From: an uncultured Clostridia bacterium
GTDB taxonomy: Bacteria; Bacillota; Clostridia; Oscillospirales; Acutalibacteraceae
Assembly: GCA_947176035.1 (NCBI GenBank)
Contig: CAMWPJ010000002.1
Location: 1 to 47,744, forward strand
Reading direction: 5' to 3'
DNA length: 47,744 nt
Shown here piece after piece: positions 3,093 through 45,411 of the stretch. The notes beneath the pieces were generated by a model. That model saw nothing but the letters and a program-made list of their open reading frames with translations, did not search any database and had not been told where the DNA came from. How positions within the stretch are numbered: the stretch's first letter is position 1; each line of letters opens with the position of its first letter. The position numbers and the translations under genes are program-made.

Positions 3093-3426
3093 GCGAGTTG
3101 ACTTGGCAATCGCGTGCTGCATTTGCAGTATGAGGAAAGTCCGAGCAGCACAGAGCAGGATGACGGCTAACGGCCGCCGAGGGTGACCTTAGGGAAAGTG
3201 CAACAGAAATAAACCGCCTTGCTTGCAAGGTAAGGATGGAAAGGCGAGGTAAGAGCTCACCGAGCGGGTGGAGACATCCGCTGCCATGTAAACCCCATCC
3301 GCTGCAACATCGACTAAAGGGTTGTTTGCTCGACACATAACTTTGAAGGATGGCTGGAGCGTAAAAGCAATTTTACGTCGAGATAGATGATTGTCCACGA
3401 CAGAACTCGGCTTACTGTCAACTCGC
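3093..3426 (+). ncRNA. rnpB: RNase P RNA, bacterial class A type
   Basis: Catalytic RNA that removes 5' leaders from pre-tRNAs with protein RnpA. The P1 helix is seen as complementary 10-mers at 3093-3102 (GCGAGTTGAC) and 3417-3426. Hallmark conserved stretches are present: GAGGAAAGTCCGAGC near 3131, CACAGAGCAGGATG, GAGGGTGACC, GGGAAAGTGCAACAGAAA near 3193, AAACCGCC and, near the end, the ACAGAACTCGGCTTA block. About 334 nt is normal for the family. P1 plus TTTT at 3427 probably terminates it. Confidence 0.96.
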
Positions 3427-3431
3427 TTTTA

Positions 3432-3657
3432 GAGTGCGATAAATCACTTATAACCGCACACAAGACAATAAACGCAAATAATCTGTCGCAATAAAATTTA
3501 CAGATAATTTGTGAATTGCCCGTATGAACTATTTAGAACATTTACAGGCATTGAGCCTGCAAATGTTTTGTGTGCTTTTCGCTTTTTGTTCGGGGGCAGT
3601 ACCATTGTACAGCTCCCGCTCACAAAAAACAAAATTTTGAGTAATTTCTCACCCTCT
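3432..3657 (+). ncRNA. Candidate structured RNA element, copy A
   Basis: This fills most of the gap between rnpB and the aldolase gene. Copies B and C share its architecture. (1) Stem GTGCG/CGCAC (3434-3438, 3455-3459) closes a loop containing ATAAAT and AACC. (2) After an A/T-rich stretch, hairpin 3537-3567 has loop ATTGA. (3) A GTGTGCTTTTC linker follows. (4) A long stem-loop at 3583-3628 is built from TTTTTGT/ACAAAAA, CGGGGGC/GCTCCCG and GTAC-CATT-GTAC. (5) A 3' tail contains TAATTTCTCACCCTCT. No ORF is supported inside. It starts 5 nt after rnpB. Function unknown; RNA versus palindromic DNA repeat is not settled. Confidence 0.6.
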
Positions 3658-3690: not shown

Positions 3691-4533
3691 ATGCTTGTTA
3701 ATATGCGTGACCTTCTTGCAGATGCGCAGGAGGGCAATTATGCGGTCGGCTCTTTTTCCGTTGCTAATATGGAAATGGTTTTGGGTGTACTCAAGGCAGC
3801 TAAGGAACTGAAAGCACCCGTTATTTTGCAGATTGCCGAGGTCAGATTAAAACAAAGTCCGCTTGAGATAATCGGTCCGTTAATGGTTGCTGCGGCCGAG
3901 GCTGCAGACACACCTGTTGCCGTTCATTTTGACCACGGAAAAACTTTGGAAAAAATCGGTCAGGCTCTTGATTTGGGTTTCACATCTGTTATGTTTGATG
4001 GTTCACACCTTGAGCTTGATGAAAATATTGCTATGACCAAAAAGGTTATGGAAATGGCACAGGATTACGATGCGGCTGTTGAGGCTGAAATCGGCTGTGT
4101 CGGCGGGTCAGAGGATGGCTCAGAGGATATTGCAATAAACTGCACCAAGCTTGAGGATGCGGTTCGTTTTGAGACTGAGACAAATGTGGATGCACTTGCA
4201 ATCGCAATCGGTAATGCACACGGGAATTATAAGAGCACACCAAAGCTCAGATTTGATATTCTTGAAGAGGTTGAAAAAAATACCGATGTACCGCTTGTTC
4301 TTCACGGCGGGACAGGCATTACTCCTGATGATTTTGTTAAGTGTTCACACACCGGAATAAAGAAAATAAATATTGCTACAGCTACCTTTGATATGGTTGA
4401 AAACACGGTTCATAAGTGCTATAATGATGGCGGTATTAATGGTTATTATGACCTTCAGGCTGCTGAGGTTGAGGGTGCTTATCAGAATGCGAAAAAGCAC
4501 ATTTTAATTTTCGGTACAGACAACAAGGCATAA
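3691..4533 (+). CDS. iolJ: Class II ketose-bisphosphate aldolase, likely IolJ type
   Basis: A 280-aa zinc-dependent aldolase. Zinc-site and substrate motifs are visible: AVHFDHG (~80), EAEIGCVGG (~132), GNAHGNY (~177), VLHGGTG (~205) and NIATATFD (~229). Family members cleave fructose-1,6-bisphosphate, tagatose-bisphosphate or 6-phospho-5-dehydro-2-deoxygluconate. The choice of IolJ rests on the next gene, an IolC-type kinase that would make the latter substrate. If that pairing is misleading the gene is simply fba. The start has AAAGGGG 6 bp upstream. No clear promoter is seen between element copy A and the start. Confidence 0.85.
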   Translation: MLVNMRDLLADAQEGNYAVGSFSVANMEMVLGVLKAAKELKAPVILQIAEVRLKQSPLEIIGPLMVAAAEAADTPVAVHFDHGKTLEKIGQALDLGFTSVMFDGSHLELDENIAMTKKVMEMAQDYDAAVEAEIGCVGGSEDGSEDIAINCTKLEDAVRFETETNVDALAIAIGNAHGNYKSTPKLRFDILEEVEKNTDVPLVLHGGTGITPDDFVKCSHTGIKKINIATATFDMVENTVHKCYNDGGINGYYDLQAAEVEGAYQNAKKHILIFGTDNKA

Positions 4534-13490: not shown

Positions 13491-15882
<2,392 letters not shown>

Positions 15883-15890
15883 TAAATTCA

Positions 15891-16085
15891 GACCGTGATA
15901 AATGGGCTGAACCACGCACAATAAATTTTTAATTTGAAAAGGTTAAAGTAATTATAAAATCTAACCAACTTGTGAATATCGAATTCACAAGTTGGTTGTG
16001 CGTTTTTCATTTTTTGCGATAAAGCAGTACACTTGTACAGCAATTATCGCAAAAAATGAAATTCATCTCCATTTCTCGCAGTCTG
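15891..16085 (+). ncRNA. Candidate structured RNA element, copy B (dnaK-dnaJ spacer)
   Basis: Same order of parts as copies A and C, with different stem sequences. Stem CGTG/CACG (15894-15897, 15913-15916) encloses ATAAAT...AAC. A 15-bp hairpin (15963-15977 with 15983-15997) has loop ATCGA. The linker is GTGCGTTTTTC. A 13-14 bp outer stem (16008-16021 with 16045-16058) then encloses GC-A-GTAC-ACTT-GTAC-A-GC. The tail is CCATTTCTCGCAGTCTG. The first hairpin plus T5 (16003-16007) looks like an intrinsic terminator that could lower dnaJ expression relative to dnaK. Confidence 0.6.
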
Positions 16086-16158: not shown

Positions 16159-17304
16159 ATGCCTGAGGATAAAAGAGATTATTACGAGGTGCTTGGCGTC
16201 AGCAAGGGCGCAAGCGACGATGAGATAAAAAAAGCGTATAGAAAAACAGCTAAGAAATATCACCCCGACCTTAACCCCGATAATGCGGAGGCTGAGGCTA
16301 AATTCAAGGAGTGTAACGAGGCTTATGAGGTTTTATCAGACCCTCAGAAAAAGGCTCGTTATGATCAGTTCGGCTTTGCCGGTGTTGACCCGAATTATGG
16401 TGCAGGTCAGGGCGGAGCAGGCTTCGGCGGTGGCTTTGGTTTTGATGGTGCTGATATAGATTTGGGGGATATATTCTCATCTTTTTTCGGCGGTGGTTTT
16501 GGCGGCGGAAGAAATCCGAATGCACCTCAGCGCGGCCGTGATTTGCAGGCGTCTGTCAGCCTCACCTTTGAAGAGGCGGCAAAGGGCTGCAAAAAGACGA
16601 TTGAGGTTATGCGTGTGATGGACTGCAGCGATTGCGGCGGTTCAGGTGCGGCAAAGGGTACATCACCTGCAACCTGTCCCGAATGTCAGGGCAGGGGTGT
16701 AATCAATGTTCAGCAGAGAAGTCCGTTTGGTGTTATGACAACTCAGAGAACCTGTACACGTTGTGGCGGATCGGGAAAGATTATCACAACACCATGTCAG
16801 AAGTGTAACGGCAAGGGTAAGGTGCGTGCTAAAAAGAAGATTGATATTAATATACCTGCCGGTATTGATAATAATCAGGTTGTTAATGTTCGCGGCTTTG
16901 GTAATGCAGGCTCAAATGGCGGACCGGCAGGTGACCTTAAGGTTGTTGTGAATATAAAAAAGCATCCTTATTTTAACCGTGATGGTTATGATGTTTGGGT
17001 TGACAGACATATTTCCATTGTGCAGGCAACTCTTGGCTGTGAGATTCAAGTGCCTACTCTTGATGGTGATGTTAAGCTGAATATCCCTGCGGGTACACAG
17101 CCCGGTGAAGTATTTACGCTCAAGGGTGGAAAGGGTATTCAAAGGCTCAATGGTATCGGTAAGGGCGAGGAATATGTACGCGTGGTTGTGGATATTCCGA
17201 AGAGTGTTACTGATGAGCAGAGAGAGCTTTTAAAGCAGTTTGATAAATCCTATACACCGCCTAAAAATAAAGAGGGATTTTTTGATAAATTTAAGAAAAA
17301 GTAA
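16159..17304 (+). CDS. dnaJ: Chaperone DnaJ (Hsp40)
   Basis: A 381-aa type I J-protein that stimulates DnaK ATPase. J domain 1-70 with the essential HPD (YHPDLNP, ~35), Gly/Phe-rich region ~75-120, four zinc-binding CxxCxGxG repeats ([32 protein letters not shown] at ~155-225), and two C-terminal beta domains. Its ribosome site GGGGG is 8 bp before the ATG. It is separated from dnaK by 276 bp of structured sequence, much longer than the gaps between the operon's other genes. Confidence 0.98.
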
Positions 17305-18300: not shown

Positions 18301-18348
18301 GTCAAGTTATTGTTTATTGTAGTACACAAAAACGAGGAAATGTGTATT

Positions 18349-18560
18349 CAGAGGGTGAGAAATTACCCCAAATTTTGTATTTTGCGAGCGGGAGCTGTAC
18401 GATGGTACTGCACCCGAGCAAAAGACGAAAAGCACGCAAAACATACGCAGGTTCGATACCTGCGTATGTTTTAGAGTTATTTATACGGGTTATTTGTAAA
18501 TTGCTCTATATTGTTTGTGTTTTTATCCCATGTGCGGTTATGGGTGATTTATTGCACTCT
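18349..18560 (-). ncRNA. Candidate structured RNA element, copy C (minus strand)
   Basis: Read on the minus strand: stem GTGC/GCAC (18557-18554, 18535-18532) enclosing ATAAAT...AACC; a perfect 15-bp hairpin (18472-18458 with 18452-18438) with loop ATCGA; linker GCGTGCTTTTC; then a long stem (18423-18381) containing CGGG/CCCG and GTAC-CATC-GTAC; and tail TAATTTCTCACCCTCTG. The sequence is close to copy A in loops, linkers and tail. It begins 11 bp after the stop of the leftward amidase gene and lies antisense just beyond the AraC-family gene. Confidence 0.6.
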
Positions 18561-18570
18561 AAGCAATAAT

Positions 18571-19053
18571 TTACCAACTATTTGCGCCTATAATATGAAT
18601 TCCCTGAGCGGAATTATAGTGATATGTATCAAGCCTTCGCATATACGAATCATCCGTATGTGCGGCAACCAGCGGAATACTCCCCGAAAACCCCGTTACA
18701 ACAAGCGTGTGATAATACACAGTTCCGTTACTAAGGCTGATAAAATCTCCGACATCAAGACGGTTTACTGACAGCGTGGCAGCAAAGGGTCCTGCATCTT
18801 TATTGCTTAGCATAAATTTTATGAAGTATTCTGCTCCCGACCATGCGGCGGCTCTGTCATTCGGTGAATTATAATACCAGCCTATATCCTTTGTATAATT
18901 CATGACGCCTGTACCTGCATACAGGCATTGTGATGCAAAGCTTGTGCAGTCACCGCCCATTCCGTCAAAATTAAGGTATTTGCTGTTTCGCTTAAAGGCC
19001 CATTCCTTTGCATAGGAATGGGCTTTTTCACGGTTGTACTGAATAAATCGCAT
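18571..19053 (-). CDS. Putative amidase-domain protein (Amidase_6 / CHAP-like fold)
   Basis: 160 aa, almost wholly one domain of the putative amidase family seen in Firmicutes. It starts with YNREKAHSYAKEWAFKRN and has the GGDCTSFASQCLYAG motif (probable nucleophile Cys ~36), NYTKDIGWYY and a C-terminal YYHTLVVTG segment that may supply the catalytic His (~115). These resemble cysteine peptidases that cut peptidoglycan stems. No signal peptide or wall-binding domain is present, so export and substrate are unclear. TTAAGGAG precedes the ATG. Element copy C follows its stop. Confidence 0.75.
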   Translation of the reverse strand: MRFIQYNREKAHSYAKEWAFKRNSKYLNFDGMGGDCTSFASQCLYAGTGVMNYTKDIGWYYNSPNDRAAAWSGAEYFIKFMLSNKDAGPFAATLSVNRLDVGDFISLSNGTVYYHTLVVTGFSGSIPLVAAHTDDSYMRRLDTYHYNSAQGIHIIGANSW

Positions 19054-29920: not shown

Positions 29921-30157
29921 ATATTTCTCTCACTTTCAAAATGGTAATTTTATCAAATCTATATAAAATCCATTATAGTTTATTTTTAATGGTTATATTA
30001 TATAATAGTGAGTTATTTATAACAATATGTAATTTGAAATAATTTCAAAATTTACAAAATTGTAAAATATAAGCAGAATAAATTATTATTTAGCGTAGAG
30101 TGTGTTGGTCAAATAATCGTAGGCATCGTAGTCTACGAAAGTGTAGATTGCGTGATT

Positions 30158-30230
30158 TGTAGAGGCGCACAGTGTGCGCCCGCCAACATTATCGTTGTGC
30201 CCACGGGCGAACATTGTTCGCCCTCCTACA
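30158..30230. repeat. Palindromic GTAG-GGGCG-type dispersed repeat
   Basis: The 322-bp space between mreB and pdaA holds no gene. It contains a 73-bp element with imperfect terminal repeats (TGTAGAGG and CCTCCTACA). Each half has its own small palindrome: GGCGCACAGTGTGCGCC and GGGCGAACATTGTTCGCCC. Similar GTAGGGGCG...CGCCCCTAC palindromes are, from memory, common intergenic repeats in gut Clostridia. On the minus strand it lies 13 bp after the pdaA stop and could end that transcript. A shorter GTAGTCTAC palindrome is at ~30129-30139. Confidence 0.75.
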
Positions 30231-30242
30231 ATAAACACTAAT

Positions 30243-31097
30243 TTAAATTTCTACTGTAAACTGATAACCCTGCTTAATTGCTTCATCAATTACATCGCCA
30301 AGAATTTCGGCATTTGTTGCACTTACGGCATGTAGCAGCATGATTTCGCCATTGTGCAGATTATCGGTAATTGTTTTGAGTGATTCTGTAGGATCACCCG
30401 GGTTTTGCGTATCCCAGTCTGCATATGCAAAGGACCAGAAAATACTGTTGTATCCCAGACTGTCTGCAAGTGCCAATGTTTTTTCACTGAACTCACCCTT
30501 AGGGAAGCGGAAGAGCGTCATTCTGTATTTGAAGTTTTCTTTCATATAATTGTCAAGAAAAACAATTTCCTCAGTTGCTTCCTCTTCACTTACTTCATCA
30601 AGTGTATAATGACGGTAGGTATGGTTGCCGATTATGTGTCCTTCATCTATCATACGCTCAATAAGCTGCGGATTATCCTTAACAAAATCGTATGTTACAA
30701 AGAAAATCGCTTTTATATTTTTTTCCTTAAGCGTATCAAGAATTGCCGGTGTATATCCGTTTTCATAGCCTTCATCAAAGGTCAGACAAATGAATTTTTC
30801 GTCACTCATAATAAAACGGGCATCAAAGCTGCCGTATTTTTCCTGCAGTGACACAGGATCAGCTGGACGTGAGTGATTTTCACCTCTTCCGGGACCCCAG
30901 ATAATCTTTTCATTGCTGTAATTGCTTACGTTTACACCTGTTGCCTCGAGTGTGGTTTGTGCTGTATTTGTTGTGTTTTTTGTTGTCTCGGTTGTGTCGC
31001 TTGTTGTTGTGTTTTCTTTACCTGCCGAACAGCCTGCAAGAACAGCTACACATAGCAGTGGCAGAATGATTTTTTTGATGTTTTTATTAATGTTCAT
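30243..31097 (-). CDS. pdaA: PdaA-like polysaccharide deacetylase lipoprotein
   Basis: 284 aa with a lipoprotein signal (LLCVAVLAGC, lipidated Cys ~22), a Thr-rich linker and a NodB-type domain from ~90. Motifs match the delta-lactam-forming PdaA branch rather than chitin deacetylases: LTFDEGYENGYTP (TFDNGYENG in Bacillus), GNHTYRH, RFPKGEFSEKTL, FWSFAYADWD and MLLHAVSATNAE. PdaA removes acetyl groups from muramic acid in spore cortex synthesis. The function is inferred from these motifs; a vegetative wall deacetylase is the alternative. The start at 31097 is preferred for signal-peptide shape, and an ATG 12 bp upstream is also possible. Confidence 0.82.
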   Translation of the reverse strand: MNINKNIKKIILPLLCVAVLAGCSAGKENTTTSDTTETTKNTTNTAQTTLEATGVNVSNYSNEKIIWGPGRGENHSRPADPVSLQEKYGSFDARFIMSDEKFICLTFDEGYENGYTPAILDTLKEKNIKAIFFVTYDFVKDNPQLIERMIDEGHIIGNHTYRHYTLDEVSEEEATEEIVFLDNYMKENFKYRMTLFRFPKGEFSEKTLALADSLGYNSIFWSFAYADWDTQNPGDPTESLKTITDNLHNGEIMLLHAVSATNAEILGDVIDEAIKQGYQFTVEI

Positions 31098-45335: not shown

Positions 45336-45411
45336 TTTATCACCAATAATGTTTATGCACAAAAAGCTTATGAAAGAATATTTAATTAAATAAACAATAA
45401 TTTATTGTTAC

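Follow-up and report, generated by a model that had tools for sequence, protein, structure and literature searches.

The window, by which we mean the whole 47,744-nt stretch of Clostridia DNA analyzed here, contains three intergenic copies of one structured element (Table 1). Copy 1 follows the RNase P RNA gene (3094-3429, +) and precedes an ORF (3691-4533, +) that we take to be fba. Copy 2 sits between the HSP70 gene dnaK (14035-15882, +) and a dnaJ-like gene (16159-17304, +). Copy 3 is the core of a longer unit (L428) that occupies the whole gap between two convergent ORFs, and the TAA stop codon of one of these ORFs (18571-19053, -) falls within an outer repeat of this unit. The original prediction described three intergenic elements of one architecture at these places; all three were found with a shared fold, and the boundaries of the closing stem lie within 2 bases of those predicted. 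Perfect matches to the conserved hairpin tip of the element occur exactly three times in the window. When up to three mismatches are allowed, there are nine matches compared with 2.15 expected, and six of these nine are the same three places with both strands counted.

Table 1. Element copies and their parts in the window, numbered from its first base.
Feature	Position	Strand	Sequence or pairing
Copy 1, whole element (P1 to P1')	3431-3657	+	
Copy 1, P1, 5' arm	3431-3453	+	AGAGTGCGATAAATCACTTATAA; partner 3635-3657
Copy 1, P1, 3' arm	3635-3657	+	
Copy 1, P3, 5' arm	3456-3461	+	GCACAC; partner GTGTGC 3570-3575
Copy 1, P4 hairpin	3537-3567	+	loop ATTGA
Copy 1, P5 hairpin	3576-3634	+	
Copy 1, tip	3596-3613	+	GCAGTACCATTGTACAGC
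Copy 2, whole element	15889-16085	+	CAGACCG...GCAGTCTG
Copy 2, P4, terminator-like on both strands	15963-15997	+	
Copy 2, P5 hairpin	16005-16061	+	
Copy 2, tip	16024-16041	+	GCAGTACACTTGTACAGC
Copy 3, core element (P1 to P1')	18350-18560	-	
Copy 3, full 271-nt unit	18303-18573	-	outer inverted repeats TAAATTATTGCTTA / TAAACAATAACTTG
Copy 3, P4, terminator-like on both strands	18437-18473	-	
Copy 3, tip	18394-18411	-	GCAGTACCATCGTACAGC

The shared fold consists of a closing stem (P1), an inner stem (P3), a hypervariable hairpin (P4), and a long hairpin (P5) that is tipped by GC-A-GTAC-N4-GTAC-A-GC. P3 (e.g., ACGCC/GGCGT) leads into a variable stretch, which is followed by P4. All four parts appear together in the minimum-energy fold of copies 1 and 2 on either strand; for copy 3, the minimum-energy fold contains P4 and P5, and the full P1 was not obtained. 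The stem changes with retained pairing that had been listed for these copies are real and extend to P1, which reads AGAGTG/CACCCTCT in copies 1 and 3 and CAGAC/GTCTG in copy 2. Two details of the predicted architecture have to be revised. The motif ATAAAT, taken to be a free conserved strand, lies largely inside P1 and faces ATTTCTC, and the hairpin loop ATYGA, taken to be fixed, is common rather than fixed. The stretch between P3 and P4 often carries a module of its own (L254, L256, and others; e.g., TGTAGGGGCGG..CCGCCCG), and similar modules occur in unrelated small repeats of the window's genome. A core copy in L409 (G000:C19) keeps P1, P3, and P4 and is without the entire P5 hairpin, and minimal forms of about 105-110 nt (L378, L379, and L386) consist of P1 and P5.

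The compensatory changes were evaluated with copies from the genus. Of 92 distinct copies, anchoring succeeded for 82, the filters of the arm-swap test left 77, and 37 were non-redundant and entered the alignment, for which a structure of 62 pairs was obtained by a column vote over the single-sequence folds of these 37 copies. In this alignment, 85.4% of the pair cells are paired (73.1% when shuffled) and 308 cells are changed on both sides (111 when shuffled). The covariation score is 0.351, compared with 0.143 +/- 0.007 for 500 shuffles, none of which scored as high, a control that ignores the relatedness of the copies, as does that of the arm-swap test. Two-sided change is found in 35 pairs (28.9 when shuffled; 1 of 500 as high), and the number of further pair types is unexceptional (89 versus 87.1; 160 of 500 as high). 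The second helix of the alignment, which corresponds to P3, has 95.1% of its cells paired. Shifting the partners by one to three columns lowers pairing to 39.5-46.1%, a comparison in which the alignment structure is favored because it was built from the same sequences. The arm-swap test, a simple home-made script, is independent of this structure. The arms of P1 score 34.5 with their own partners and 26.1 when swapped between copies (0 of 10,000 permutations), and the same preference is found for lower P5 (20.2 versus 16.7; 0 of 10,000) and upper P5 (17.1 versus 16.4; 1 of 10,000). The P5 arms also prefer their own partners in 25 non-redundant copies from remote Clostridia (23.6 versus 18.5; 0 of 10,000). 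A structured family with strong compensatory change is therefore present as predicted. Its reading as a selected RNA fold goes further than such change can carry by itself; covarying palindrome arms can also arise by DNA-level copying or by selection on DNA hairpins.

The exact tip GCAGTACNNNNGTACAGC occurs eight times in the window's genome (2.16 Mb, 186 contigs) and the reversed pattern not once, in agreement with the earlier expectation of many genomic copies. Counted by exact tips, a measure that misses altered ones, the family is present in 24 of 60 genus genomes (1 to 15 copies each) and in 19 of 393 genomes of the class (at least 90% complete), representing 13 of 220 genera with up to 21 copies; the reversed control gave none in either survey. 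The exact tip is absent from the 8 genomes surveyed in other genera of the same family and from the 13 in the rest of the order. Twelve of the 19 class carriers have a single match, and some of these are probably chance matches. This patchy, multi-copy distribution is the pattern of a mobile element moving between lineages.

Both window sites tested, which hold copies 1 and 2, show insertion polymorphism between relatives. For the first site, a match to RNase P was obtained in 47 genomes, of which 38 were read, including the window's own; the tip (up to two mismatches) is absent from all 37 others. In the close relative G047, CTCGCTTTTTGTATATATTT corresponds to CTCGCTTTT, the element, and AAATATATTT of the window's genome. 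In the spacer upstream of dnaJ, the tip is likewise absent from all 29 other genomes read (30 of the 56 with a dnaJ match, the window's own included). Neither copy 1 nor copy 2 has a clear target-site duplication, and no ends beyond P1 were seen in either. We also considered that the outer P1 arms may be a host hairpin split by the insertion; no such hairpin is seen at the empty sites of these two copies. Other relatives have different extra sequence downstream of RNase P RNA (L442, L463, and L498), suggesting that small elements may have landed in this spacer repeatedly. Elsewhere, a minimal element of about 110 nt (L378 and L379) is found at the same site in two genomes, where it overlaps a stop codon upstream of a gene beginning MRVELLAHTPNP; at least one copy has thus been kept between species.

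The location of the element at gene 3' ends is clear. Of the 78 genus copies for which both neighbors were called, 73 adjoin a gene 3' end. The 82 anchored genus copies comprise 39 between convergent genes, 22 between codirectional genes on the element strand, 12 between codirectional genes on the opposite strand, 5 between divergent genes, and 4 without a called neighbor; the corresponding numbers for 41 remote copies are 16, 11, 3, 5, and 6. Codirectional sites thus lean to the gene strand by 22 to 12 in the genus (p 0.12), 11 to 3 among remote copies (p 0.06), and 33 to 15 when pooled (two-sided sign test, 0.013), with the provision that individual strand calls, made with a simple home-made ORF caller, may be wrong. 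For instance, copy 1 was scored with a minus-strand left neighbor, the caller having picked an ORF antisense to the RNase P gene.

Many occupied sites retain a trace of insertion. Of 80 testable genus copies, 28 have one and the same sequence of 16-32 bases on either side; among 5,858 non-cognate flank pairs, whose members come from different genomes, this is the case for 3. In this branch, a stem of at least 6 can be formed by 26 of the 28 doubled flanks; of the remaining two, L273 is a tandem second element, and two other flanks have stems of only 6. The next 8 nt contain on average 5.2 T after the right flank copy and 2.3 after the left. These patterns suggest that a terminator-like hairpin was doubled and that the right one kept the T-run. 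The copies with doubled flanks end in CAGACTGTCGATAAAG and, reversed, CAGCGTGTAGAAAAAG.

A second type of terminal inverted repeat, TAAATTATTGTTTA ... TAAACAATAATTTA or near variants, encloses copy 3 as well as those of L004 and L006 in the window's genome. Units with TAAATTATTGTTTA-like ends and different interiors also exist. A 167-nt unit in the window (30079-30245) has ends resembling those of copy 3 (TAAATTATTATTTA / TAAACACTAATTTA) and no tip, and its interior is unrelated to that of copy 3 and rich in CGCCC/GGGCG hairpins. A lone exact TAAATTATTGTTTA end repeat at 45391-45404 (-), with no partner in the locus, is possibly a remnant. In other families, P1 itself differs (GGGGATGT../..ATCCCC in L528, GGGAATGT../..ATTCCC in L527, and AAGCGTTTATTTAAG/CTTAACTAAACGCTT in L503). 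The core is found with differing ends across branches and families and is thus not tied to one end set. Taken together, insertions unshared by relatives (copies 1 and 2), a patchy multi-copy family, and terminal inverted repeats of at least two types argue against compensatory change being by itself a mark of RNA here.

The branch with doubled flanks may belong with the IS1182 family. TnSha1 and IS1272, two members of this family, are reported to insert into hairpins, several of which are terminators (PMC4923244). The published insertions delete or replace the hairpin, partly or wholly, and some older IS1272 targets are not inverted repeats (PMC4923244, PMC5678879); a model that permits duplication of the whole stem-loop is presented as well (PMC5678879). 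Among 17 tip-bearing genomes searched with NF033551 (cut-off 270), an IS1182-family transposase was obtained in one, G023, where the frame scores 407.8 bits, and not in G022, which holds the most doubled flanks (9 of 28). The IS1182 element of G023 has its left end (CAGCTTGTCGAAAAAG) directly behind a hairpin and its right end (TTTTTCTACAGACTG) at the contig end, and these ends share the asymmetry of TGTCGA (left) versus TGTAGA (right) with the tip-element branch. From these ends and the hairpin target, we propose that the CAGACTGTCGATAAAG/CAGCGTGTAGAAAAAG branch may be related to this family.

Accounting for these patterns, we consider it fairly probable that each of the three stretches arose by insertion of a small, non-autonomous, MITE-like mobile element (about 105-320 nt) of a kind that settles at gene 3' ends. 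The folded core of P1, P3, P4, and P5 would define the family, with P1 doubling as the inverted-repeat end in several branches. In the CAGACTGTCGATAAAG/CAGCGTGTAGAAAAAG branch, an IS1182-type DDE transposase would insert the element at intrinsic-terminator hairpins and thereby duplicate the whole hairpin, of which the right copy would keep the T-run and still terminate. In the window's genome, a unit with different ends (TAAATTATTGTTTA) encloses the core. Given its likeness to a two-way terminator, P4 may render insertion at gene ends harmless. The conserved tip most likely serves as the site at which an enzyme that moves or keeps the element recognizes it, and the fold under selection may be DNA in transposition or RNA. 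Several observations sit uneasily with this explanation. No doubled flank is found in 52 of the 80 testable copies, relatives show no hairpin where copy 2 is inserted, and copies in other families have other end sequences. Moreover, the pooled gene-strand lean is unexpected from a strand-blind inserter, and a plain MITE needs no stems with jointly changing letters. The original prediction had set a simple DNA transposon with identical stems against an RNA; what we find is a mobile element whose stems differ.

The tip extends beyond Clostridia. Since the exact tip was used to collect the copies, part of its constancy follows from the sampling. In loci reached via the left end, the tip varies: it reads GCGGTAC in L361, L362, L363, L365, and L369, is disrupted in L366, and shows a compensated GTAT/ATAC in L373. 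Six genomes (five Alistipes and one Rikenellaceae), chosen because the tip had already matched them, contain 2, 11, 3, 37, 2, and 13 tips, with none in the control. Among 27 distinct copies from these genomes, ATGA or ATGG precedes the tip element in 22 and CCAT follows it in 22. The outer arms prefer their own partners (55.1 versus 41.5; 0 of 10,000; 17 non-redundant copies). Some tips in an Alistipes genome are in tandem, 121-143 nt apart. In the Alistipes genome G455, two loci with tandem tip elements 142-143 nt apart (L562 and L564) share flanking genes and have three and two units, respectively; with L564 ending at a contig end, these may be an assembly duplicate or reflect a recent change in unit number. 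Among tip matches on viral contigs (at least 120 stretches), the flanks read lie in unrelated contexts, and these matches were put down to chance. In a further tip scan (at least 116 stretches), flanks were read for 62 stretches picked by title, the other 54 listed being dropped, and several of the 62 (e.g., L131, L154, L166, and L175) are likely chance matches in coding sequence. What the two phyla have in common is the tip and the style of the element. As a tentative extension, it is possible that a folded module with the tip GC-A-GTA(C/T)-N4-(G/A)TAC-A-GC rides unrelated transposon ends and is shared by Clostridia and Bacteroidota, with a hitherto undescribed trans-acting factor reading it as a single strand and driving its spread to terminators; that strand may be RNA or DNA, perhaps of the strand opposite to the one first read.

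An alternative that keeps more of the original prediction is a functional structured RNA, either a small RNA or an element of 3' UTRs, which several mobile units have spread as their cargo, with the tip binding a protein and the RNA regulating or protecting transcripts. The strong covariation of P1, P3, P4, and lower P5, its recurrence in the Alistipes arms, the retention of the core where ends differ, and the presence of the tip in two phyla (in a sample chosen by tip) are consistent with this, as is the copy kept at one site in two genomes (L378/L379). We nevertheless find it doubtful. Neither window site tested is conserved between species, and the hints about the strand disagree. The pooled lean of codirectional sites favors an RNA on the plus strand, as first proposed, whereas in the genus by itself the lean is not significant, and the mismatches do not favor that strand. 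G.T and A.C mismatches are equal over all alignment cells (GT 109, CA 107), and in well-paired columns they number GT 30 and CA 73. Where neighboring pairs are intact, A.C exceeds G.T by 37 to 15 genome-column events in P1 (p 0.003) and by 15 to 5 in lower P5 (p 0.04), with no excess in P4 (8 to 7) and a near-constant G.T in upper P5. RNAfold gives the minus strand as more stable in 25 of 37 copies. An RNA from the minus strand was also considered; the mismatch excess that would point to it reaches significance when genome-column events are counted, whereas a count of distinct columns does not reach it (23 to 13 for P1 and lower P5 together; p 0.13).

The position of the element relative to genes could also reflect a domesticated two-way transcription terminator that spreads by replacing lost terminators. 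P4 has an A-tract, a GC stem, and a T-tract and is flagged as a terminator on both strands in copies 2 and 3, and nearly half of the anchored genus copies (39 of 82) lie between convergent genes. We regard this as unlikely, since P1, P3, and the tip are left unexplained, the flag in copy 1 is weak and on one strand only, and a doubled flanking hairpin is already present in about one third of the copies that could be tested for it. Still less likely is a single-stranded DNA hairpin system similar to REP/RAYT, IS200-type elements, or attC, in which an enzyme recognizes the folded strand at the tip. The mismatched tip, the tandem copies in an Alistipes genome, and the lean of mismatch types to one strand would be expected from such a system. 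Searched for such an enzyme in the form of a Y1 transposase (PF01797), however, only 8 of 22 tip-bearing genomes have one, including none of the six Alistipes/Rikenellaceae genomes and none of three from family f50. The sole Y1 transposase gene in the window's genome (L274; G000:C65:11323-11679, -) has the look of IS200, and its locus is without a tip. Least probable is that the covariation is mutational, with palindrome arms copied onto each other by template switching and no selection on the fold: the elements are palindromic DNA, and P4 is both the most variable and nearly perfectly paired, but the P1 arms covary at a distance of about 150 nt or more (which bears on P1 and not on P4) and an internal P1 mismatch persists uncorrected across many copies.

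With the MITE-like family as the preferred explanation, the element can be compared with known structured RNAs and repeats. No Rfam family reaches its gathering threshold on the elements of the window, of 18 Clostridia loci, or of 8 further loci, which bears out the earlier impression that the element matches no named RNA. At a loose threshold, copy 1 gives the end of RNase P RNA and seven matches far below family cut-offs. Rfam structured RNAs of gut Clostridia are comparable in size and in the number of covarying helices, and the elements differ from them in that no such family reaches the gathering score. REP elements are extragenic mismatched hairpins with high copy numbers that occur in tandem groups. 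The tip elements resemble them in all of these respects, whereas several of the genomes richest in tips are without the Y1 transposase that characterizes REP with RAYT. An omega-RNA of TnpB or a HEARO-type RNA finds no support either: a TnpB-type nuclease (PF07282) is absent from the window's genome, the one genome searched for it, and Rfam gives no match. No description of the tip-element family was found in the incomplete set of literature searched, and the family may be among the 3,161 candidate RNAs of PMC8040213.

If the preferred explanation is correct, a large class of small, elaborately folded mobile elements that seek out terminators is common to gut Clostridia and Alistipes, and there is a mode of insertion that doubles an entire terminator hairpin. 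It would also point to a factor that reads a hairpin tip common to two phyla, and would caution against relying on compensatory change alone, by which mobile DNA can be mistaken for RNA.

Among small repeats, the pneumococcal BOX, RUP, and SPRITE elements are likewise short, dispersed, and structured, and SPRITE is mostly located at gene 3' ends and is terminator-like (PMC3049150). In the available part of that description, compensatory stems and a shared tip are not mentioned, and by this account the tip elements would differ from all three. In mode of insertion, there is a likeness to IS1182-family elements such as IS1272 and TnSha1, which are reported to insert at hairpins, often terminators (PMC4923244, PMC5678879), and the terminal inverted repeats of the IS1182 element in G023 are similar in sequence and asymmetry. 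The tip elements differ from this family in that the hairpin is doubled and not deleted, the published removal of the target stem-loop not being seen here, and in that the tip core also has unrelated ends and the transposase is found in one of 17 carriers searched. Unlike the IS1182 family and IS-derived MITEs, they are non-coding and have a folded core with changing stems.
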